NCBI RefSeq assembly: GCF_016862635.1
Contig: NZ_BONI01000008.1
Coordinates: 62,001 to 126,000, forward strand
Direction of reading: 5' to 3'
Length of the DNA: 64,000 bases
DNA from: Catellatospora coxensis
GTDB lineage: Bacteria > Actinomycetota > Actinomycetes > Mycobacteriales > Micromonosporaceae
Positions within the stretch are counted from its first letter, which is position 1. Each line of letters begins with the position of its first letter. The notes below the pieces were generated by a model. It had not been told where the DNA came from. It did not search any database and saw only the letters and a list, made by a program, of their open reading frames with translations. Positions 9,309 through 45,444 of this stretch are shown here, piece by piece. The translations under genes were made by a program, and so were the position numbers.

Positions 9309-9387
9309 AAGGAAGGGCATCGTCGGCACGCGTCAGCGAGACGAGCAGCAGCTCGGCACATCGCTTTGCGTTGTAGAAGGTGCCCTT
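9309..9387. repeat. Family A palindrome, divergent copy with enlarged centre
   Basis: Half-sites AAGGAAGGGCA (9309-9319) and AGAAGGTGCCCTT (9375-9387) pair over TGCCCTT but are separated by about 55 bp instead of 16-18 bp. It occupies the gap between the binding-protein and livH genes inside the operon. Either the centre was expanded by an insertion or the two halves are decayed. It may act as a transcript-stabilising or attenuating hairpin. Confidence 0.5.
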
Positions 9388-9409
9388 TTACCCGGAAGGC
9401 CCGCGCCTC

Positions 9410-10291
9410 ATGGTGAATTTCCTGCAACACACCTTCAACGGACTGGTCGGCGGTGCATTCCTCGCGCTGCTGGCGCTCGGTCTCGCGGTCATCTTCGGCA
9501 TGCTCCGCGTCGTCAACTTCGCCCACGGCGCGATCTACATGCTCGGCGCGTTCGGGGCGTACGTCCTGCTCACCGAGGTCGGCCTGTCGTTCTGGTGGGC
9601 CCTGCTGGTGATGCCGATCGCGCTGGCCCTGTTCGGCATGGCGCTGGAACGGCTGCTGGTCGCCCGGCTGGCCCGGCTCGACCCGCTCTACAACTTCCTG
9701 CTCACGTTCGGCCTGACGCTGATCCTGCAGGACGCGGTGAAGTCCCGGTACGGCGTGCAGTCCAGCCCGTACGACGCGCCCGCGATCCTGTCCGGCACGC
9801 TCGACCTCGGCGCGTTCGACTTCCCGGCGTACCGCGTGTTCGTGCTGGTCATGGCGGTGGCGGTGTGTGTCGGCGTGTGGTGGCTGCTCAGCCGGACCCG
9901 GGTCGGCATGGTGGTGCGCGCCGCCACCGAGCGCCCCGAGCTGAGCACCGCGCTCGGCATCGACGTCGGCCGGTGGGTGACGCCGGTGTTCGGGTTCGGC
10001 ATCGGCCTGGCCGGGCTGGCCGGGGTGCTCGCCGCGCCGATCCGCGCGGTGAACCCGCTGATGGGCGCGGATCTGATCATCGTGGTCTTCGCGGTGGTGG
10101 TGATCGGCGGCCTGGGCTCGATCTTCGGTTCGGTCGCCGCCGGGTTCGCGATCGGCCTGGTGCAGGCCTGGGTGCAGGCCCTCGGCGAGGACTGGGCGCT
10201 GCTGTCGCAGGTCCTGGTCTTCCTGGTGATGGCCGGCGTGCTGCTGTGGCGCCCGGCCGGCCTGTTCGGACGAGAGGAGGCCCCGGCATGA
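9410..10291 (+). CDS. Branched-chain amino acid-type ABC transporter permease LivH-like
   Basis: 293 residues with about eight hydrophobic segments. The LivH-type N-terminus (LQHTFNGLVGGAFLALLALG, then VVNFAHGAIYMLGAF) and the conserved IGGLGSIFGSVAAG loop that contacts the ATPase are present. It forms the membrane channel with LivM. ATG 9410 is chosen because it begins the conserved hydrophobic N-terminus; an upstream in-frame ATG at 9380 lies inside the palindrome. The stop overlaps the ATG of a 24-codon ORF in an ATGA. Confidence 0.92.
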   Translation: MVNFLQHTFNGLVGGAFLALLALGLAVIFGMLRVVNFAHGAIYMLGAFGAYVLLTEVGLSFWWALLVMPIALALFGMALERLLVARLARLDPLYNFLLTFGLTLILQDAVKSRYGVQSSPYDAPAILSGTLDLGAFDFPAYRVFVLVMAVAVCVGVWWLLSRTRVGMVVRAATERPELSTALGIDVGRWVTPVFGFGIGLAGLAGVLAAPIRAVNPLMGADLIIVVFAVVVIGGLGSIFGSVAAGFAIGLVQAWVQALGEDWALLSQVLVFLVMAGVLLWRPAGLFGREEAPA

Positions 10292-10358
10292 GCGAGCGGA
10301 GCGAGCGAATCAGCGGGCTTGGTACTCATGCCGCCGACGAGCGGAGCGAGGAGAAGGC
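10288..10358. repeat. 71-bp coupling module, single copy (livH-livM)
   Basis: Same length, position (ATGA to ATGA) and coding pattern as the two copies at 18933-19074. Shared peptide pattern: MSE at the start, ER at residues 6-7, L at 11, H at 14 and DERSEEK near the end. Confidence 0.75.
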
Positions 10359-10362
10359 ATGA
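10288..10362 (+). CDS. 24-residue ORF of the 71-bp coupling module between livH and livM
   Basis: The ATG overlaps the livH stop (ATGA), and the stop overlaps the livM ATG (ATGA at 10359-10362). AGAGGAGG 8-9 bp upstream is a strong ribosome binding site. The peptide starts MSERSERISG and ends ADERSEEKA; the codons for its last residues (GAGGAGAAGG) are the ribosome binding site of livM. The distance from this ATG to the livM ATG is 71 bp, the same as the period of the ruvA-ruvB copies. A biological role of the peptide is not established; the module may act only through re-initiation of ribosomes. Confidence 0.5.
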   Translation: MSERSERISGLGTHAADERSEEKA

Positions 10363-11405
10363 GCGAGCTGGAGCAGGACAAGGCCGCCGCCGGGTCCGTC
10401 GCGGTCGCCGACCACACCGCGGGGGTACGGGCGGAAGCCCGCGCCACAGCCCCGGCCGCCCCGACCGGTGGAACGATCGTGCCGCCATGGCTGCGCTGGA
10501 CGCTGACCGGGGCGGCCGTGCTCGTCGCGCTGGTGCTGCCGGTCAACCTCTACCCGACCGTGGCCGTGGACATCGCCTGCTGGGCGCTGTTCGCGGTGGC
10601 GGTGGACCTGCTGCTCGGGTACACCGGCCTGATGTCCTTCGGGCACGCGGCCTTCTGGGGCACCGCGGCCTACGCCACCGGCCTGGCCGCGATCCACTGG
10701 GGCCTGCCGTTCCCGCTGGCGGTGCTGCTCGGCGCGCTGGCCTCGACGGTGCTGGCGGTGCCGGTCGGCTACCTCGCGGTCAAGCGGGTCGGCATCTACT
10801 TCGCGATGGTCACCCTCGCGTTCGCGCAGATGGTGTACTACATCGCCAACCAGTGGCGCTCGGTCACCCAGGGCGAGAACGGCCTGCAGCGGGTGCCGCG
10901 CGAGCTGTTCGGGCTGGACCTGAGCGACGAGTTCTACTTCTACTACGCGGCCCTGCCGATCGTGGCGGGCGGGTTGTGGCTGGTCTGGCGTACGGTGCAC
11001 TCGCCGTTCGGCCGGGTGCTGGTGGCGATCCGGGACAACCCGGCCCGCGCCCGCGCGCTCGGTTACCCGGTGCACCGGTACAAGCTGGCCGCGTTCCTGC
11101 TGTCGGCGTTCACCGCCGGGCTCGGCGGCGGCCTGTTCGCGATCGGCCACCGCTTCGTCTCGCTGGACGTGCTGCACTGGACCACCTCGGGCAAGGCCGT
11201 GATCATCGTCGTCCTCGGCGGCATCGGCACCCTGTGGGGCCCGGTGGTCGGCTCGGCCGCGGTGACCCGCCTGGAGGACTGGCTCTCCTTCGCCGGCTTC
11301 GAGCAGATCGGCCTCGTCACCGGCGCCATCTTCGCCCTCACCGTCCTCATCTTCCGCCGCGGCCTCTGGGGCACCCTCGCCCACTGGCTCCGCCGCCGCC
11401 CCTGA
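10359..11405 (+). CDS. Branched-chain amino acid-type ABC transporter permease LivM-like
   Basis: 348 residues. A hydrophilic, Ala-rich N-terminal extension (about residues 1-45) precedes about nine hydrophobic segments. LivM motifs include LLGYTGLMSFGHAAFWG, YFAMVTLAFAQMVY, RAIRDN-like VAIRDNPARARALGYPV and the coupling loop GGIGTLWGPVVGSA. It pairs with LivH. Translation depends on the ribosome binding site provided by the 71-bp module immediately upstream. It is the last gene of the importer operon; the next gene starts 172 bp downstream behind its own operator. Confidence 0.92.
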   Translation: MSELEQDKAAAGSVAVADHTAGVRAEARATAPAAPTGGTIVPPWLRWTLTGAAVLVALVLPVNLYPTVAVDIACWALFAVAVDLLLGYTGLMSFGHAAFWGTAAYATGLAAIHWGLPFPLAVLLGALASTVLAVPVGYLAVKRVGIYFAMVTLAFAQMVYYIANQWRSVTQGENGLQRVPRELFGLDLSDEFYFYYAALPIVAGGLWLVWRTVHSPFGRVLVAIRDNPARARALGYPVHRYKLAAFLLSAFTAGLGGGLFAIGHRFVSLDVLHWTTSGKAVIIVVLGGIGTLWGPVVGSAAVTRLEDWLSFAGFEQIGLVTGAIFALTVLIFRRGLWGTLAHWLRRRP

Positions 11406-17803: not shown

Positions 17804-18340
17804 GTGCAGCAACGGCAGCGGCGGGTGCTCGGCGTCGATCCGGGGCTCACCCGGTGCGGCGTCGGTGTGGTGGAGGGCGTGCCCGGCCGGCCCTGCGTGA
17901 TGGTGGACTACACCGTCATCGGCTCCGATCCCGACGCCGACCTGGCCGACCGGCTGCTGCACCTGGACCGCAACCTGGCCGACCTGATCGCCAAGCACCA
18001 GCCGGAGAGCGTCGCCGTGGAGCGGGTGTTCAGCCAGCACAACGTGCGCACGGTGATGGGCACCGCGCAGGCGGCCGCGGTCGCGGTGCTGGCGGCCGCG
18101 CGCGCCGGGCTGCCGGTGCGCACCTACACTCCGTCCGAGGTGAAGGCCGCCGTGACCGGCTCCGGTCAGGCCGACAAGAAGCAGGTCACCACGATGGTCA
18201 CCCGGCTGCTGCGGCTGGACGCGCCGCCCCGGCCGGCGGACGCGGCCGACGCGCTGGCGCTGGCCATCTGCCACATCTGGCGCGGTGGCACGCGCGACCG
18301 GCTGGGCGAGGCCATCCGTGCGGCGAAAGGCAGGCAGTGA
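17804..18340 (+). CDS. ruvC: Holliday-junction resolvase RuvC
   Basis: 178 residues, normal length. RNase H-like nuclease that cuts Holliday junctions after RuvAB branch migration. It begins [20 protein letters not shown] (first catalytic Asp in DPGLTRCG), has the conserved Glu in [12 protein letters not shown] and the C-terminal Asp pair in [15 protein letters not shown] 17804 is set by GGAG 7 bp upstream and the position of the DPG motif. ruvA overlaps the stop, so ruvC-ruvA are translationally coupled. Confidence 0.96.
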
Positions 18341-18936
18341 TGATCGCGAGTGTGGCGGGGACCATCGCCTCGATCGGCGCGGACGCGGCCGTGGTCGAGG
18401 TCGGCGGGGTCGGCCTGCGGCTGCTCTGCGCGCCGGGCACGCTGGCGGCGCTGCGGGTCGGGCAGCAGGCCCGGCTGTCGGCGACGCTGATCGTGCGCGA
18501 GGACTCGCTGACCCTGTTCGGCTTCGCCGACGACGACGAGAAGCAGCTGTTCGAGCTGCTGCTGACGGCCAGCGGGGTGGGCCCGAAGCTGGCCCAGGCC
18601 GCGCTGTCCGTGCACACCCCGGACGTGCTGCGCGCGGCGCTGTCGCACGGGGACGTCTCGACGCTGACCCAGGTGCCGGGCATCGGCAAGAAGGGCGCCG
18701 AGCGCATGGTCCTGGAGCTGCGCGACAAGGTCGGCCCGGTGGCCGCGGTGCCGGCCCAGGGCGGCCGCCCGCAGGCGTGGACCGAGCAGGTGCGCCAGGG
18801 CCTGGTCGGGCTCGGCTGGAGCCAGGCCCAGGCCGACCAGGCGGTCACCGCCGTGGCCGAGACCATCGACGGCCCGACCCCGCCCGTGCCCGTGCTGCTC
18901 AAGCAGGCGATCCGGCTGCTGGGCAAGACGCGATGA
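18340..18936 (+). CDS. ruvA: Holliday-junction branch-migration protein RuvA
   Basis: 198 residues. The N-terminal OB-fold starts [13 protein letters not shown] and includes EDSLTLFGFADDDEKQLFELL. The helix-hairpin-helix region reads LTQVPGIGKKGAERMVLELR. The C-terminal third domain that binds RuvB is present. RuvA tetramers bind the four-way junction and load RuvB. The ATG overlaps the ruvC stop (TGATG), and its own stop is the first of three successive ATGA overlaps leading to ruvB. Confidence 0.95.
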   Translation: MIASVAGTIASIGADAAVVEVGGVGLRLLCAPGTLAALRVGQQARLSATLIVREDSLTLFGFADDDEKQLFELLLTASGVGPKLAQAALSVHTPDVLRAALSHGDVSTLTQVPGIGKKGAERMVLELRDKVGPVAAVPAQGGRPQAWTEQVRQGLVGLGWSQAQADQAVTAVAETIDGPTPPVPVLLKQAIRLLGKTR

Positions 18937-19007
18937 GCGAGCACCTAGAGCGAACCCGGCAGCTTTCCACTCATCGTGACGACGAGCGCAGCGAGGAGAA
19001 GCGATGA
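18933..19007 (+). CDS. 24-residue ORF, first copy of the coupling module (ruvA-ruvB)
   Basis: The ATG overlaps the ruvA stop in ATGA; the stop overlaps the next module's ATG. The peptide begins MSEHLERTRQL and ends DDERSEEKR. Its DERSEEK end is shared with the livH-livM copy even though the middle differs, which suggests that either the peptide or the encoded ribosome binding site is under selection. Whether it is translated into a stable product is unknown. Confidence 0.45.
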   Translation: MSEHLERTRQLSTHRDDERSEEKR

Positions 19008-19074
19008 GCGAGCACCGCGAGCGGATCCGGCAGCTTGCCATTCATCGTGACGACGAGCGCAGCGAGGAGAAGCG
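18933..19074. repeat. 71-bp coupling module, two tandem copies (ruvA-ruvB)
   Basis: ATGs at 18933, 19004 and 19075 are spaced exactly 71 bp. Copies 18933-19003 and 19004-19074 are closely similar and each runs from one ATGA to the next. Each ends with gcgaggagaagcg, which is the ribosome binding site for the following ATG. Confidence 0.9.
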
Positions 19075-19078
19075 ATGA
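19004..19078 (+). CDS. 24-residue ORF, second copy of the coupling module (ruvA-ruvB)
   Basis: Starts in the stop of the first copy and ends in the start of ruvB (ATGA at 19075-19078). The peptide begins [11 protein letters not shown] and ends DDERSEEKR. It differs from the first copy at a few positions, mostly in the first 45 bp, while the last 30 bp are identical. The preceding copy supplies its ribosome binding site. Confidence 0.45.
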
Positions 19079-20139
19079 CCGACTCGCTGGTCAGCGCGCT
19101 GGCCTCGCCGGAGGAGCGCGACGCCGAGGCGTCGGTGCGCCCGAAGCGCCTGGCGGAGTTCGTCGCCCAGGAGCGGGTGCGCGAGCAGCTGGAGGTGCTG
19201 CTGCACAGCGCGCTGCGGCGCGGCTCGCCGCCCGACCACATCCTGTTCTCGGGCTCGCCGGGGCTGGGCAAGACCACCCTGGCGATGATCGTCGCCGCGG
19301 AGCTGGGCGGGGCGCTGCGGATGACCTCGGGTCCGGCCATCGAGCGCTCGGGCGACCTGGCCGCGGTGCTGACCAGCCTGCAGCAGGGCGACGTGCTGTT
19401 CATCGACGAGATCCACCGCATCGCGAAGCCGGCCGAGGAGCTGCTGTACAGCGCGATGGAGGACTTCCGGGTCGACGTGATGGTCGGCAAGGGTCCCGGC
19501 GCGACCGCGATCCCGCTGGACGTGGAGCCGTTCACCCTGGTCGGCGCGACGACGCGGGCGGGCCTGCTGACCGGCCCGATGCGCGACCGGTTCGGGTTCG
19601 TCGGGCATCTGGAGTTCTACAGCGCCCCGGAGCTGGCGGCGCTGCTGCAGCGTTCGGCGCGCATCCTCGGGGTGGCGGCGACGAAGGAGGGCATCGCGGA
19701 GATCGCCGGCCGGTCCCGGGGCACTCCGCGTATCGCCAACCGCCTGCTGCGCCGCGTCCGCGACTACGCCGAGCTGCGCTCGGACGGGGTGGTCAACGTG
19801 TCCTCGGCGCGCGCCGCGCTGAAGGTGTACGACGTCGACGATCTCGGGCTGGACCGGCTCGACAAGGCGGTGCTGGTGTCGCTGGTCGAGCTGTTCGGCG
19901 GGGGACCGGTGGGCCTGTCCACGCTGGCTGTGGCGGTGGGGGAGCAGCCGGACACCGTCGAGGAGGTCGTGGAGCCGTTCCTGGTGCGGGCGGGCCTGCT
20001 GGCGCGTACGCCCCGGGGCCGGGTGGCGACGGCTGCCGCGTGGCGGCATCTCGGCAAAAAACCACCAAATGGTACTTTTGGTGCTGGTGCCACCACGGCA
20101 CCCGACCTGTTCACCGTCGACGGCCAGCCGGACACGTAA
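19075..20139 (+). CDS. ruvB: Holliday-junction helicase RuvB
   Basis: 354 residues. AAA+ motor that drives branch migration on RuvA-bound junctions. Walker [10 protein letters not shown] (about residues 63-71), Walker [10 protein letters not shown], sensor 1 GATTRAG, arginine-finger region GPMRDRFG and the C-terminal winged helix ([16 protein letters not shown]) are intact. ATG 19075 follows GAGGAGAAG of the 71-bp module. The last 28 residues are an unconserved tail encoded partly by an unusually AT-rich stretch (20053-20083). Confidence 0.96.
20063..20083. repeat. AT-rich hairpin in the ruvB 3' end
   Basis: CACCAAA (20063-20069) pairs with TTTGGTG (20077-20083) around 7 nt, preceded by a run of six A. 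This stretch encodes the non-conserved RuvB tail and is out of line with the local GC content, which suggests an inserted or remodelled end. Confidence 0.35.
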
Positions 20140-20290
20140 GCGGACCTCGCGTTCGTGATCTTAACGTGACCTACACCGCAAGTGTGCGATCGCTCGCGTA
20201 CCGACTAGACTTCGCGCGGTCCGAACGGACGACAGATGCCACCGCCAGCGTGCTCAGCCGCGCGGCGGGGCCGTGTGGAAAGGTCACAAA

Positions 20291-20708: not shown

Positions 20709-22589
20709 GTGGCACCACCTCAGGGACAGATGCGCCCCGGGAGGCAACTTGCCCTTCTCGGCGCCATCTTCGTCATCCTCGCCAGCGCGGTCTGGTTCGG
20801 CGGCAAGGGCGGCTGGCAGGATCGCCTCGCCCCCAACCTCGGCCTTGACCTCGTCGGCGGCTCGCGGGTCACCCTCCTGGCGCAGACCGGCGCCGATGGC
20901 AAGCCGCCGACCGCGCAGGATCTCGAGCAGGCCCGCCGCATCATCGCCGAGCGCGTCGACGCTCGCGGTGTGTCCGAGGCGCAGGTCGTCATCGAGGGCA
21001 CCCAGAACATCGTGATCTCGGTGGCCAAGAAGGGCGACGACGCGATCGACGACGTCGGCCAGGCCTCCCAGCTGTTCTTCCGCAAGGTGCTGAGCCGCAC
21101 GGACGGCAGCGGCCTGGCCGCGGCCCCGCAGCCGTCGGCGAGCGCCAGCCCGAGCGCGGCCGCGAGCCCGAAGCCGAGCACCGCGGCCAGCCCGAAGGCC
21201 ACGCCGAAGCCGTCGGTGAGCCCGTCGGCCGGTGGCACCGGTGGCGGTGCCGCGATGGCGCCGACCCCGACGCCGACCCCGGCGGCCAGCAAGAGCGCCG
21301 CCGCGTCCCCCTCGGCCAGCCCGAAGGCCGCGGCCGCTCCGAAGCCCTCCGCCTCCGCCGCGGGCAACAAGAAGGTGACCGTCGAGCAGGTGCAGGCGAA
21401 GGTCGGCAAGGCCGCCTGGGACGCGGCCGCCAAGCTGACCGCGGTGCCGACCGACCCGGCCCAGATCGAGGCGCTCGCGCCGTTCGCCACGCTCGACCAC
21501 TACGAGGTCGCGCTGCTGGCCCCGAAGGTGCAGTTCTACGTGCCGCAGGTGACCTGCGAGCAGCTCGACAAGCGCCCCCCGGGCTCGATCAACAACCCGG
21601 ACGCCGAGGCCGTCGCGTGCGAGAACGGCGCCAAGTACCTGCTCGACGTGTCGAAGGTCAAGGGCACCGACGTCGACAAGGCGTCGCCGCAGATCGAGCA
21701 GAACACCAACCGCCGGGTGGTCTCGCTGGACTTCTCCAGTGACGGTCTGGACAAGTGGACGCAGCTGACCAAGGAGTCCTTCAACAACGAGGGCCAGAAG
21801 TGCGACCAGTCCGCGATCGGCCCGGAGAACCACTGCCTCGTCGCGGTGGTGCTGGACAACAAGATCATCTCTGCGCCGGAGATCCAGGGCGTGCTCGGTG
21901 ACGACTCCGTCATCAGCGGCGACTTCGACCAGAAGTCGGCCACCGACCTGGCCAACAACCTGAACTACGGCTCGCTGTCGATGACCTTCGAGCAGCAGGA
22001 GGCCCAGTCCATCACCCCGACGCTGGGCGGTGAGCACCTGAAGGCGGGTCTGCTCGCGGCCGGCATCGGCATGCTGCTGGTGGTCATCTACTCGTTCTTC
22101 TACTACCGCCTGCTGGGCACGGTCATCGTGCTGTCGCTGATCCTGTCGGCGGCGCTGACCTTCCTGGCGCTGGTGTTCCTGGGCCGGGAGATGGGCTTCA
22201 CCCTGACGCTGGCCGGTATCGCCGGATTCATCGTCTCGCTCGGTGTCGCCGCGGACTCCTTCGTCATCTACTTCGAACGTCTGAAGGACGAGATCCGCGA
22301 GGGCCGCAGCCCGCGCAGCGCGGTGCCCCGCGCCTGGGTGCGTGCCCGCCGGACGATCCTGACCGCCAACGCGATCTCGCTGATGGCCGCGCTGGTGCTC
22401 TACCTCGTCTCCTCCGGTGCGGTGGCGGGCTTCGCCTTCGCGCTGGGTCTGGCGACCCTGCTGGACCTGATCGTGGTGTTCCTCTTCCGCCACCCGATCA
22501 TGGCGATGTTCGCGCGTACCGACGCGTTCCTCTCCCCGCGCGTCAGCGGCCTGGGCCGCGTGCTGCACGAAGCCAAGGAGGCTAAGTGA
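20709..22589 (+). CDS. secD: Protein translocase subunit SecD
   Basis: 626 residues, six membrane helices (one N-terminal, five C-terminal) around a large extracytoplasmic domain. Family motifs: GLDLVGGSRVTL, ERVDARGVSEAQV, FSSDGLDKW, and the RND-type membrane part with LGVAADSFVIYFERLKDE. It uses the proton motive force to help pull secreted proteins through SecYEG. Residues about 138-218 are an Ala/Ser/Pro/Lys low-complexity insertion in the first extracytoplasmic domain. GTG 20709 has AGGGAGA about 10 bp upstream. secF overlaps its stop codon. Confidence 0.95.
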   Translation: MAPPQGQMRPGRQLALLGAIFVILASAVWFGGKGGWQDRLAPNLGLDLVGGSRVTLLAQTGADGKPPTAQDLEQARRIIAERVDARGVSEAQVVIEGTQNIVISVAKKGDDAIDDVGQASQLFFRKVLSRTDGSGLAAAPQPSASASPSAAASPKPSTAASPKATPKPSVSPSAGGTGGGAAMAPTPTPTPAASKSAAASPSASPKAAAAPKPSASAAGNKKVTVEQVQAKVGKAAWDAAAKLTAVPTDPAQIEALAPFATLDHYEVALLAPKVQFYVPQVTCEQLDKRPPGSINNPDAEAVACENGAKYLLDVSKVKGTDVDKASPQIEQNTNRRVVSLDFSSDGLDKWTQLTKESFNNEGQKCDQSAIGPENHCLVAVVLDNKIISAPEIQGVLGDDSVISGDFDQKSATDLANNLNYGSLSMTFEQQEAQSITPTLGGEHLKAGLLAAGIGMLLVVIYSFFYYRLLGTVIVLSLILSAALTFLALVFLGREMGFTLTLAGIAGFIVSLGVAADSFVIYFERLKDEIREGRSPRSAVPRAWVRARRTILTANAISLMAALVLYLVSSGAVAGFAFALGLATLLDLIVVFLFRHPIMAMFARTDAFLSPRVSGLGRVLHEAKEAK

Positions 22590-43204: not shown

Positions 43205-45444
43205 TGAGCAGGGCCGATGCGACCGACGGACGGGGCCGGAAGAAGGGCCGCGGCGAGGCCGAGGAGGTCCCGCAGGAGGAGACCGGCTGGCTCGACGACC
43301 TGCGTGGCGCGAAGCAGGCCAAGGACCAGTTCGACGACGCGGACTTCACCGACGGCGGCAGCAGCCGCTGGGACAAGCTGAGCGCGCTGAGCGACGACGC
43401 CCCCGCGGGCCGTGGCGCCCCCAAGGCTCCCGCTGACGCCGGTCGCCGCCCGCGCGGCGGCGACGCTCCGGCGGGCCGGCGGGGCGTCGAGGACACCGCC
43501 GGTGGCCGCCGTCCCGCCGAGGAGCCCACGGGTGGCGTCCGCCGTCCCGCCGAGGACCCCATGGGCGGTGGCCGCCGCGCTGCCGAGGAGCCGACGGGTG
43601 GTGGCCGCCGCGCGGCTGAGGAACCCGTCGGCGGTGCCCGCCGTGCGGGTGAGGACACCCAGGGCGGCCGCAGGCGCACGCCGGAGGAGCCGCCTTCGGG
43701 CCGCCGCCGCGCTGACGATGAGCCTGCCGGTCGCCGCCGTGCAGGTGAGGACCCGGCGGGCGGGTTCCGCGCCGCCGGTGAGGACACGCTGAGCGGCCGC
43801 CGCCGCGCCGAGGAGGAGCCCGCGGGCCGCCGCCGGGCCGAAGACGACACCGCCGCGGGTCGCCGCCGTGCCGGTGAGGACACGCAGACCGGTCGCCGCC
43901 GCGCTGACGAGGAGCCCACCGGCGGTCACCGCCGGGCGGCGGAGGAGCCGGTCGGCCGCCGGGCGGCGGAGGAGCCGCCGGGTCGCCGGGCCGCCGCCGA
44001 CGACACCGGCAGCCGCCGCCACGTGGCGGACGAGCCCGCCGGCCGTCGTGCCGCCCGGCCGGAGCCGGAGGAGCCCCGCCGGGGCCGTCCCGAGCCCGCG
44101 CCGGTCGAGCCGCAGCCGGGCCGTGGCCGCCCGGAGCAGGCGCTGCGCAAGCCGGGCGGGGAGCCGCCGGTGGTGCGCCGCCGCGAGATGGACCCCACCC
44201 GAACCGGTGAGATGCCCCGTGCCGTCGGCAACCCGCCCCCCGCCGACGGCGGTCGCGGCCGTCCGGGCATGCCGGCCGGCCCGGCGGGCAAGCCCGCGAC
44301 GCCGCCGGCCCGGCCGGAGCCGCAGCGCGCGGGCTTCCCGGCCGTCGCCCCGGTCTCCCCGGCCCGCCCGAACCGCGGCGGCGTGCCCGTTCCGCCGGTC
44401 GGCCCGCCGCCGCAGGGCGGCCCCGCCCCGCTCGGCGGCATGCCGCCGCAGGCCGGTCCCCACGCGGGCCCCGGACCTGCCGCCCCGCACGCCGGGCCCG
44501 CCGGCCCGATGCCCGGCCCGCACGCCGGACCCGCTCCCGCCGGGCCGATGCCCGGCCCGCACGCGGGTCCGGGCCCGAAGCCGGGCGGTCCCGCCGCCGG
44601 CCCCGGCCCCGTCGGCGGTGGCCGCCCGCCCGGTCGGCCCGAGCCGATCGCGGTGCGCCCGCCGGACCCGAACGCCGTGGTGCCGCCGGCCGGCGACCGC
44701 CGCGCCGGACTGGCCGCGGGCGTCGACGCCATCCGCGGCGCCCGGTCGGAGGTGCGCAAGCAGCTGCGCGAGCAGCAGCGGCTGCGTATGTGGACGCTGA
44801 TCGCGCTGGTGGCCGTCGTGGTGGGCGCGCTGCCGTTCTACTTCGTGCTGCGCGCGGCGACCCGTGACCCGGTGCTGACCACGCTGGACGCGCTGGACGT
44901 GCCGTCGTGGGCGGTCACCGCCGGCAAGACCCAGGACAACATCTACGGCAGCCGCTGGTGCCTGATCGACTGCCGCTACCGCGAGCGCTCGCTGGAGTCG
45001 GCGCGGGGGATCGACGAGACGACCGAGGCGTACACCAAGGCCCTCACCGACGCGGGCTGGGCCCGCTGGAACGTGCCCAGCTGCGTGCTGGACGAGGGCA
45101 CCGAGGGCAAGTTCTCCTGCTGGCGGCGCGACGAGTTCACGCTGGACCTGTGGGTCCGTCCGATCACCACCCCGGAGTGCACGGACCTGCTGCGCAACCG
45201 GCCGACCGTCGGCCCCAGCCAGGAGCCGGCGGCGCAGCCGAGCGCCGACCCGTCGGCGGCCCCGGCCGGTGACCCGGACGCCTGCAAGGGCTCCGCGGTG
45301 ACGATCAAGGTGCTGAACACGGTCGCCGACGACCGCATCCGGTTCACCGCCGATCCGAACGGCGAGCAGGGCACGGGCGGGGACGAGGAGACCGGCGAGG
45401 AGACCGGCACGGAGAGTCCTGCCCCGACACCGTCGGCGAGCTGA
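43204..45444 (+). CDS. Large membrane protein with disordered Arg/Glu repeats and Cys-rich outer domain
   Basis: 746 residues, no family recognised. Residues about 1-60 are acidic with a Trp-containing helix (EETGWLDDLRGAKQAKDQFD). Residues about 80-310 are 15 or more degenerate 12-17-residue repeats around GRRRA-x-E(E/D)(E/P). Residues about 310-510 are Pro/Gly-rich (PMPGPHAGP repeats). A coiled stretch leads into one membrane helix (about 529-550, LIALVAVVVGALPFYFVL). The outside domain (about 550-690) has six or more cysteines (WCLIDCRYRERS, SCVLD, FSCWRRDEF, PECTDLL). ATG 43204 overlaps the rarA stop. The charged cytoplasmic repeats suggest a scaffold or cell-envelope role; this is inference. 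Confidence 0.8.
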   Translation: MSRADATDGRGRKKGRGEAEEVPQEETGWLDDLRGAKQAKDQFDDADFTDGGSSRWDKLSALSDDAPAGRGAPKAPADAGRRPRGGDAPAGRRGVEDTAGGRRPAEEPTGGVRRPAEDPMGGGRRAAEEPTGGGRRAAEEPVGGARRAGEDTQGGRRRTPEEPPSGRRRADDEPAGRRRAGEDPAGGFRAAGEDTLSGRRRAEEEPAGRRRAEDDTAAGRRRAGEDTQTGRRRADEEPTGGHRRAAEEPVGRRAAEEPPGRRAAADDTGSRRHVADEPAGRRAARPEPEEPRRGRPEPAPVEPQPGRGRPEQALRKPGGEPPVVRRREMDPTRTGEMPRAVGNPPPADGGRGRPGMPAGPAGKPATPPARPEPQRAGFPAVAPVSPARPNRGGVPVPPVGPPPQGGPAPLGGMPPQAGPHAGPGPAAPHAGPAGPMPGPHAGPAPAGPMPGPHAGPGPKPGGPAAGPGPVGGGRPPGRPEPIAVRPPDPNAVVPPAGDRRAGLAAGVDAIRGARSEVRKQLREQQRLRMWTLIALVAVVVGALPFYFVLRAATRDPVLTTLDALDVPSWAVTAGKTQDNIYGSRWCLIDCRYRERSLESARGIDETTEAYTKALTDAGWARWNVPSCVLDEGTEGKFSCWRRDEFTLDLWVRPITTPECTDLLRNRPTVGPSQEPAAQPSADPSAAPAGDPDACKGSAVTIKVLNTVADDRIRFTADPNGEQGTGGDEETGEETGTESPAPTPSAS

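Follow-up and report, generated by a model that had tools for sequence, protein, structure and literature searches.

The tandem repeat that joins ruvA to ruvB in Catellatospora coxensis is very probably a two-unit array of a short, nonautonomous mobile repeat that sits on start codons, has the design of the mycobacterial MIRU, and is spread across its class. The window that we analyzed is a 64,000-nucleotide stretch of the source genome (G000; 9.35 Mb in 222 contigs). The observations that we made concern the dispersal of the repeat, its empty and filled sites, its location at start codons, a rule governing its length, the lack of conservation of its peptide, and the covariation of its hairpins.

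Sequence reading placed ATGs at positions 18933, 19004, and 19075, spaced exactly 71 bp apart. Each lies within an ATGA whose TGA stops the preceding frame, which is first that of ruvA, then that of sORF 1, and then that of sORF 2. This chain of overlapping 24-codon modules had been described in an earlier, sequence-only reading of the window and was confirmed: sORF 1 (18933-19007) and sORF 2 (19004-19078) encode 24 residues each and have the terminal codons GAG GAG AAG CGA TGA. The features of the junction are as follows.

18340..18936, + strand: ruvA (Pfam RuvA_N, HHH_5, and RuvA_C); its stop, TGA at 18934-18936, overlaps the start of sORF 1
18933..19003, + strand: element unit 1, 71 bp, with sORF 1 (match to model R1, E 6.9e-8)
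18971..19007, + strand: hairpin 2 of unit 1, from the fold and the same alignment columns, with the sORF 2 start codon in its right arm
19004..19074, + strand: element unit 2, 71 bp, with sORF 2 (match to model R1, E 9.5e-16)
19004..19026, + strand: hairpin 1 of unit 2, DTGAGCGAGC-NNN-GCGAGCGRAY, from the alignment and pair counts of 44 units and from covariation in other genera
19042..19078, + strand: hairpin 2 of unit 2, from the fold of 19004-19078, RNAalifold, and pair counts
19075..20139, + strand: ruvB (Pfam RuvB_N, AAA_lid_4, and RuvB_C); its start codon overlaps the sORF 2 stop

An ungapped comparison of repeat units 18926-18996 and 18997-19067 gave 90% identity, and Tandem Repeats Finder reported the repeat with a period of 71, 2.2 copies, and a score of 258, the second highest among 36 rows in the window. 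Elsewhere in the window, 43488-43999 holds a long array of repeats whose periods are close to 33 bp. No Rfam family reached its gathering score in 18300-20200. A BLAST search with the 157-base ruvA-ruvB stretch returned 42 matches in its own genome at E ≤ 2e-4, itself included. The two-unit repeat is far beyond chance, since there are 41 further matches, all at E ≤ 2e-4, and empty sites in related species.

A profile scan of fetched genome stretches identified 82 units in 62 arrays, so that the module is found at about 60 further places in the genome. The stretches scanned were those around most of the 66 exact and 18 one-mismatch occurrences of a core pattern, plus further BLAST hits; at 3 mismatches the pattern became unspecific, with 386 places against 336 for a reversed control. 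The 82 units are a lower bound because a wider model finds genome places outside this set, and divergent copies are undercounted because likeness to the core motif was the basis on which copies were chosen. Contigs C7, C83, C102, and C129 have elements at or close to their ends, and assembly breaks and draft copy numbers may thus be affected. At another locus (L097; contig C28, about 22413 to 22440), an element is reduced to its last ~27 bases, which are joined to the 3' end of a gene whose C terminus reads DERSEEKA, and the next ORF starts at the ATGA of the element; this putative gene pair resembles the exonuclease VII genes.

The ruvA-ruvB junction could be compared across 11 Catellatospora genomes, all of which contain ruvB. 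Seven of the 11 orthologous junctions are empty and read ..GCG/ATGA.., with a native 4-base overlap, while the others carry two units (G000 and G003) or one (G006 and G001, the latter a 98-bp version). Further sites were compared in syntenic regions of 80 kb, as far as both flanks could be located. Sites A, B, C, and D likewise have empty orthologues with a native DTGA start. Across orthologues, site A contains zero, one, or two copies or remnants, site B zero or one copy, and site C zero to two copies or else shortened remnants (17 and 47 bp); up to three tandem units stand at site F (three in G010). Arrays in the source genome have 1 to 3 tandem units, and up to 4 occur among the matches listed for relatives (G004). 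Site D, filled in the source genome, lies within the window and represents a third, full copy of the element there; the orthologous site is empty in G006 and has 9 extra bases only in G010. The features at this site are as follows.

9380..10291, + strand: membrane-protein ORF, putative LivH-type permease, with its stop within the 5' ATGA of the third copy
10288-10362, + strand: third element copy, full (unit 10288..10358; match to model R1, E 1.3e-19)
10359..11405, + strand: membrane-protein ORF, putative LivM-type permease, with its start within the 3' ATGA of the third copy

The sequence-only reading had proposed a mobile or expandable translational-coupling cassette. It had named two outcomes that would speak against this, filled junctions in all close relatives and absence of the module from other loci, and we observed neither. 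Expandability was borne out by the 1 to 3 tandem units found here and by the differences in copy number between species at one site. The dispersal and the empty sites agree with the mobile part of the proposal, which would explain the dispersal by transposition; coupling, which we infer from the gene layout, would be close to neutral for the genes concerned. Ordinary local duplication of the ruvA-ruvB spacer, with no mobile element, has a probability near zero. It would account for the 90% identity of adjacent units and for the resemblance among the units of any one array, but it leaves unexplained the 61 further arrays in the genome stretches that were fetched, the empty orthologous sites, and the matches to model R1 in 139 of 200 Micromonosporaceae genomes, which represent 31 of 44 genera. 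Duplication explains the second unit only, which can well be a copy of the first.

The earlier reading had also reasoned that the 71-bp length restores a stop/start overlap after every insertion, and this holds far beyond the junction. When 58 full Catellatospora units were cut without regard to frame, they measured 68 bp (33 units), 71 bp (18 units), 74 bp (5 units), 77 bp (1 unit), and 79 bp (1 unit), and all but one (57/58) are 2 mod 3 in length. Array length equals 2n mod 3 in 42 of 45 arrays with both ends (three exceptions); the 17 of 62 arrays left out of the junction counts have no DTGA at one end or reach a contig end. Measured units in other genera are 2 mod 3 in 66 of 69 cases, with three exceptions and with 80 and 77 bp as the commonest lengths, and unit lengths overall are mostly 65 to 83 bp. 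The location of the element is equally regular. An ORF of coding composition begins at the 3' DTGA in 59 of 59 scorable arrays (3 of the 62, without a 3' DTGA, were dropped). Such an ORF upstream ends in the 5' DTGA in 28 of the 45 arrays with both ends, and among the remaining 17, at least some occupy a start codon that no upstream gene overlaps.

Remnants and irregular copies also bear on the length rule. The site C remnants in G000 and G001, of 17 bp (MSEEAA) and 47 bp, are both 2 mod 3, with the overlap kept. Four 75-bp units at site F break the rule singly; they are fused in frame with a neighbor, and the sums 75+74 and 75+75+74 are again 2 mod 3. A degenerate 51-bp copy at site A in G003 is 0 mod 3 and breaks the rule; through it, the product of the downstream gene would be extended in frame at its N terminus. 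Two Micromonospora loci (L206 and L222) contain hairpin 1 alone, with no 3' DTGA within the next 115 bases, and may be 3'-truncated elements fused to the N terminus of a gene.

Whether the 24-residue peptide itself has a role was left open in the sequence-only reading. We aligned 44 of the 58 units (alignment A1), taking one per locus and strand and only lengths of 2 mod 3, so the single frame-exception unit is absent from this alignment and from the codon and pair counts. Synonymous and nonsynonymous changes from the consensus numbered 51:185 in the 5' part (44:182 expected) and 49:107 in the 3' part (41:113 expected), and no in-frame stops were present against 12.2 expected. The element therefore keeps an open frame that closes on the next start, and the sequence of the peptide shows no sign of purifying selection beyond the absence of stops. 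A functional peptide product is very improbable. It would fit the open frame in 44 of 44 translated units and the recurrence of a pattern like MSE..ERI..L..HAADERSEEKA, but synonymous changes are not in excess in either half, sORF 2 has no Pfam match, and peptides differ between genera past an MSERSER-like start, which hairpin 1 dictates.

The alignment of 44 units revealed two hairpins per unit. Hairpin 1 follows the pattern DT-ga-GC-ga-GC-NNN-GC-ga-GC-ga-AY, and hairpin 2 follows the pattern TCAYGCC..C-ga-C-ga-GC-GNA-GC-ga-G-ga-G..GGCRTGA. Tandem G.A blocks and GNA loops make stable hairpins, and the four paired tandem G.A blocks are kept in 41, 43, 44, and 43 of the 44 units. In unit 2 of the ruvA-ruvB array, the last base of hairpin 1 pairs with the first base of the start codon; hairpin 2 has the left arm TCATCG (19042-19047), a GNA loop, and a right arm with GAGGAG and CGATGA, the latter holding the ruvB start codon. 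The 5' hairpin of unit 1 is partly decayed, as marked by unpaired cells in its R1 match.

Covariation supports both hairpins. RNAalifold recovered hairpin 2 from the 44 units, with five pairs changing on both sides, and exactly hairpin 1 from 65 units of other genera (alignment A2, 65 of 66, leaving out the 50-bp L196). Pair counts over the 44 units gave 90.3% paired against 86.3% in shuffles and 25 double-change cells against 3.6. None of 500 shuffles scored as high on any of five pairing measures, and slid versions came nowhere near. The case for the hairpins rests on covariation because none of the five single units that were folded was clearly better than its own shuffles (z +1.15 to -1.18). 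In other genera, the pair formed by the initial base of the 5' start codon and its partner was scored at 87 places and was A-T in 52, G-C in 29, A-C in 3, G-T in 2, and T-T in 1 (Fisher p 3e-17 on the A/G rows). The search pattern, in which the hairpin 1 loop was fixed as GNA, did not constrain these two positions beyond allowing C or T for the partner. Structure and translation signals thus evolve together.

The mismatches carry information on the strand. G.T outnumbers A.C by 22 to 6 over the 15 inner pairs, suggesting the sense strand; with all 17 pairs counted, the numbers are 22 and 19, the contrast being lost through the outermost, poorly kept pair. Few changes separate orthologous copies, and these are partly compensated and partly uncompensated. 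At the ruv, B, and C sites, hairpin 1 has picked up changes since insertion that no partner compensates; hairpin 2 is still mostly paired at four sites (A, B, C, and ruv), with little change among orthologues. Site F has 25 unpaired cells, where fixed offsets fit the 75-bp units poorly.

These data bear on the possibility that the host retains the hairpins to regulate translation, with the next start masked until a ribosome arrives and coupling thereby made strict. We consider this improbable. The right arm of hairpin 2 holds both GAGGAG and the start codon, the inner pairs have a G.T excess, and hairpin 2 stays mostly paired in orthologous copies, all as masking would lead one to expect. However, the predicted accessibility of the ribosome-binding region is higher in 58 arrays (0.437) than at 22 native overlaps (0.366; p 0.012), and that of the start codon alone is 0.392 against 0.421 (p 0.55). 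Masking is unsupported because predicted accessibility of the start region is not below that of native overlaps; the uncompensated changes in hairpin 1 after insertion, the failure of the five units to clearly outfold their shuffles, and the disappearance of the G.T/A.C contrast over all 17 pairs also speak against it. Because there is no sign of masking and hairpin 1 acquires uncompensated changes in orthologous copies, we tentatively favor a role for the hairpins in movement of the element, as single-stranded DNA, more than in service of the host.

The element is widespread outside this genome. By plain DNA comparison, 14 of 61 genomes contain the stretch; 10 of these are among the 11 genomes of the genus, and 4 are among the other 50. 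Model R1 matched 55 of 394 genomes of the class, its own included, and the hairpin 1 pattern occurred in at least 117 stretches. The 80 matches listed include Micromonospora, Nocardia, Nonomuraea, Microbispora, Kitasatospora, Streptomyces, Nocardioides, Aeromicrobium, Actinoallomurus, and one Acidimicrobiia MAG. At 18 of 87 places in other genera, our script found no downstream gene. Viral contigs contained no exact match to the hairpin 1 pattern. In a specificity check with model R2 on 198 genomes of the phylum, 4 had a match at E ≤ 1e-4: the source genome, another genome from its order, and two from beyond the class that have a single weak match apiece. Within a large genus of the same order, probably Mycobacterium, 77 of 297 genomes had a match at E ≤ 0.01, and the strongest matches were 65-bp units, 2 mod 3 in length, with a tandem spacing of 65.

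The sequence-only reading knew of no published description of such a module, but MIRUs are a precedent of the same design. As summarized in a passage of a 2025 review, MIRUs appear to be mobile and to insert at start codons, and the MIRU ORF is coupled to the gene with a -4 spacing, probably with minimal impact (PMC12548453, citing Supply et al. 1997). Excerpts from two other papers describe repeats of 40 to 100 bp at 41 locations, 12 of them variable in copy number, with a function not well understood as of 2009 (PMC2734929), and units of 77 bp and 53 bp at senX3-regX3 (PMC4213456). The Catellatospora element shares these properties: it occurs in tens of loci as units of similar size (62 arrays; full units of 68 to 79 bp), has a small ORF that overlaps its neighbors through NTGA, is present or absent at start codons in orthologous sites, and varies in tandem copy number (0, 1, or 2 at ruvA-ruvB and 3 at site F). 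By description, rather than by aligned sequence, it would thus appear to work like a MIRU. It differs from the MIRU in occurring in Micromonosporaceae and other actinobacterial families, in having two covarying hairpins with G.A blocks, and in showing the frame rule and empty sites across 11 species. No MIRU-like elements outside mycobacteria were among the titles listed in our literature searches, mostly the best 8 to 20 of up to thousands of papers, and the sole match in a main-text search for six DNA words of the element was a virus paper. The start-codon repeat design was already known from the MIRU (1997); what is new here is the class-wide spread, the hairpin anatomy, and the series of empty sites.

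That these elements and the mycobacterial MIRU form one family by descent has slightly less than an even chance in our judgment. The shared design (short, mobile-looking repeats at start codons with -4 spacing in the passage of PMC12548453; 40 to 100 bp and 12 variable among 41 locations in that of PMC2734929) and the recognizable 65-bp relatives in the probable Mycobacterium genus argue for common descent, but nothing convincing was matched in four genomes that resemble M. tuberculosis and M. leprae in size, two of 4.4 Mb and two of 3.3 Mb (best E 0.001, 0.25, 0.26, and none).

Other classes of short repeats share some of these features. Elements of the IS200/IS605 type are not known to make a target duplication and have hairpins near their ends beside a fixed tetranucleotide. 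REP sequences and IS200/IS605 derivatives resemble the element in being short, in their hairpins and adjoining tetranucleotide, in their high copy number, and in having no gene of their own; the element differs from them in lying on start codons in the sense orientation, in containing an ORF, and in having no matching transposase that we found. A REP-like or IS200/IS605-type single-strand element, in which a Y1 transposase moves hairpin-flanked DNA beside a tetranucleotide target, is an unlikely identity for the repeat, despite hairpins and a fixed DTGA at both ends and the sense-strand structure signal in the inner pairs. The partial agreement of the flanks at both ends, described below, is not expected of that family, and the Y1 family (PF01797), the sole transposase family searched, does not track copy number: 6 of the 11 genomes contain it, but G006, with its 18 element matches, does not, and the single match in G000 carries a stop. 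With its presence uncorrelated with element copies in the 11 genomes, we set aside a link to the Y1 transposase.

Prokaryotic MITEs, as characterized in part of PMC10969869, are shorter than 500 bp, nonautonomous, and able to form stem-loops, and the same text describes Rickettsia palindromic elements as short repeats with an open frame that spare the gene they enter, lying inside genes and fused in frame. The element here matches MITEs in size, in lack of autonomy, and in stem-loop capacity, but it has no terminal inverted repeats, each end pairing instead with an internal arm, and it is located at gene starts in a GC-rich genome, whereas MITEs are found in AT-rich intergenic DNA. As in the Rickettsia elements, an open frame spares the gene; unlike them, copies lie at gene boundaries, with 59 of 59 scorable arrays ending at a start codon.

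In the mobile start-codon repeat that we propose, insertion would take place at DTGA start codons (where D is A, G, or T), with existing stop/start overlaps between genes as the preferred targets in most cases. One unit would then form a small ORF from the old start codon to a new NTGA. The downstream gene would keep its own start codon, gain the ribosome-binding site GAGGAG, and stay in stop/start contact with whatever precedes it. Insertion and tandem growth would cost little because translation could pass from the upstream gene to the sORF and on to the downstream gene. Copies that break the frame would be lost, and the peptide would be a by-product. Both DTGA ends lie within the stems of the two hairpins, and these stems would serve movement.

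The flanks of the element suggest how targets may be chosen. Among the 32 arrays with no element just upstream, bases flanking the 5' and 3' ends agreed at 71 positions against 62.1 expected (p 8e-4), and the 5' flank shared 68 bases with the complement of the guide arm of hairpin 2 against 59.0 expected (p 0.002); exact triplets were not significant in either comparison (p 0.09 for the two ends; 9 against 7.1, p 0.20, for flank and arm). At 54 places in other genera, D agreed at both ends in 43 against 32.3 expected (p 3e-4), and position -4 agreed in 30 against 14.9 expected. This set was obtained by setting aside 12 of 66 places for an upstream element-like motif or a cut flank, and some of its 5' flanks are ends of earlier elements despite the filtering. 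The agreement is suggestive and statistical only, and it could reflect a short duplication of the target, guidance by base pairing, or the two together.

We tentatively raise the idea, doubtful as it is, that the element picks start codons by base pairing, with the left arm of hairpin 2 (TCAY and adjoining bases) as the guide. The guide arm would pair, on single-stranded DNA, with a target NNDTGA, and the paired target would become the right arm of the hairpin, so that a new copy would end on a start codon matching its guide. At ruvA-ruvB and site A, the empty targets are CG/ATGA and each arm is CG-type; the target at site B, GC/GTGA, is one that both arms fit. The target at site C is GT/GTGA and the arms are GC, which does not fit the guide.

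The copy number of MIRUs is widely used to type tuberculosis strains. If the same design spans the actinobacteria, with clear empty sites and a defined anatomy of two hairpins, mobility, target choice, and the effect on translation become testable in harmless bacteria. The element is also a naturally occurring module, one or more copies of which can separate two genes with stop/start contact unbroken. If insertion is indeed guided by base pairing, the element would be mobile DNA with programmable homing to translation starts, found across much of the actinobacteria, and the mycobacterial typing repeats would be one branch of it.
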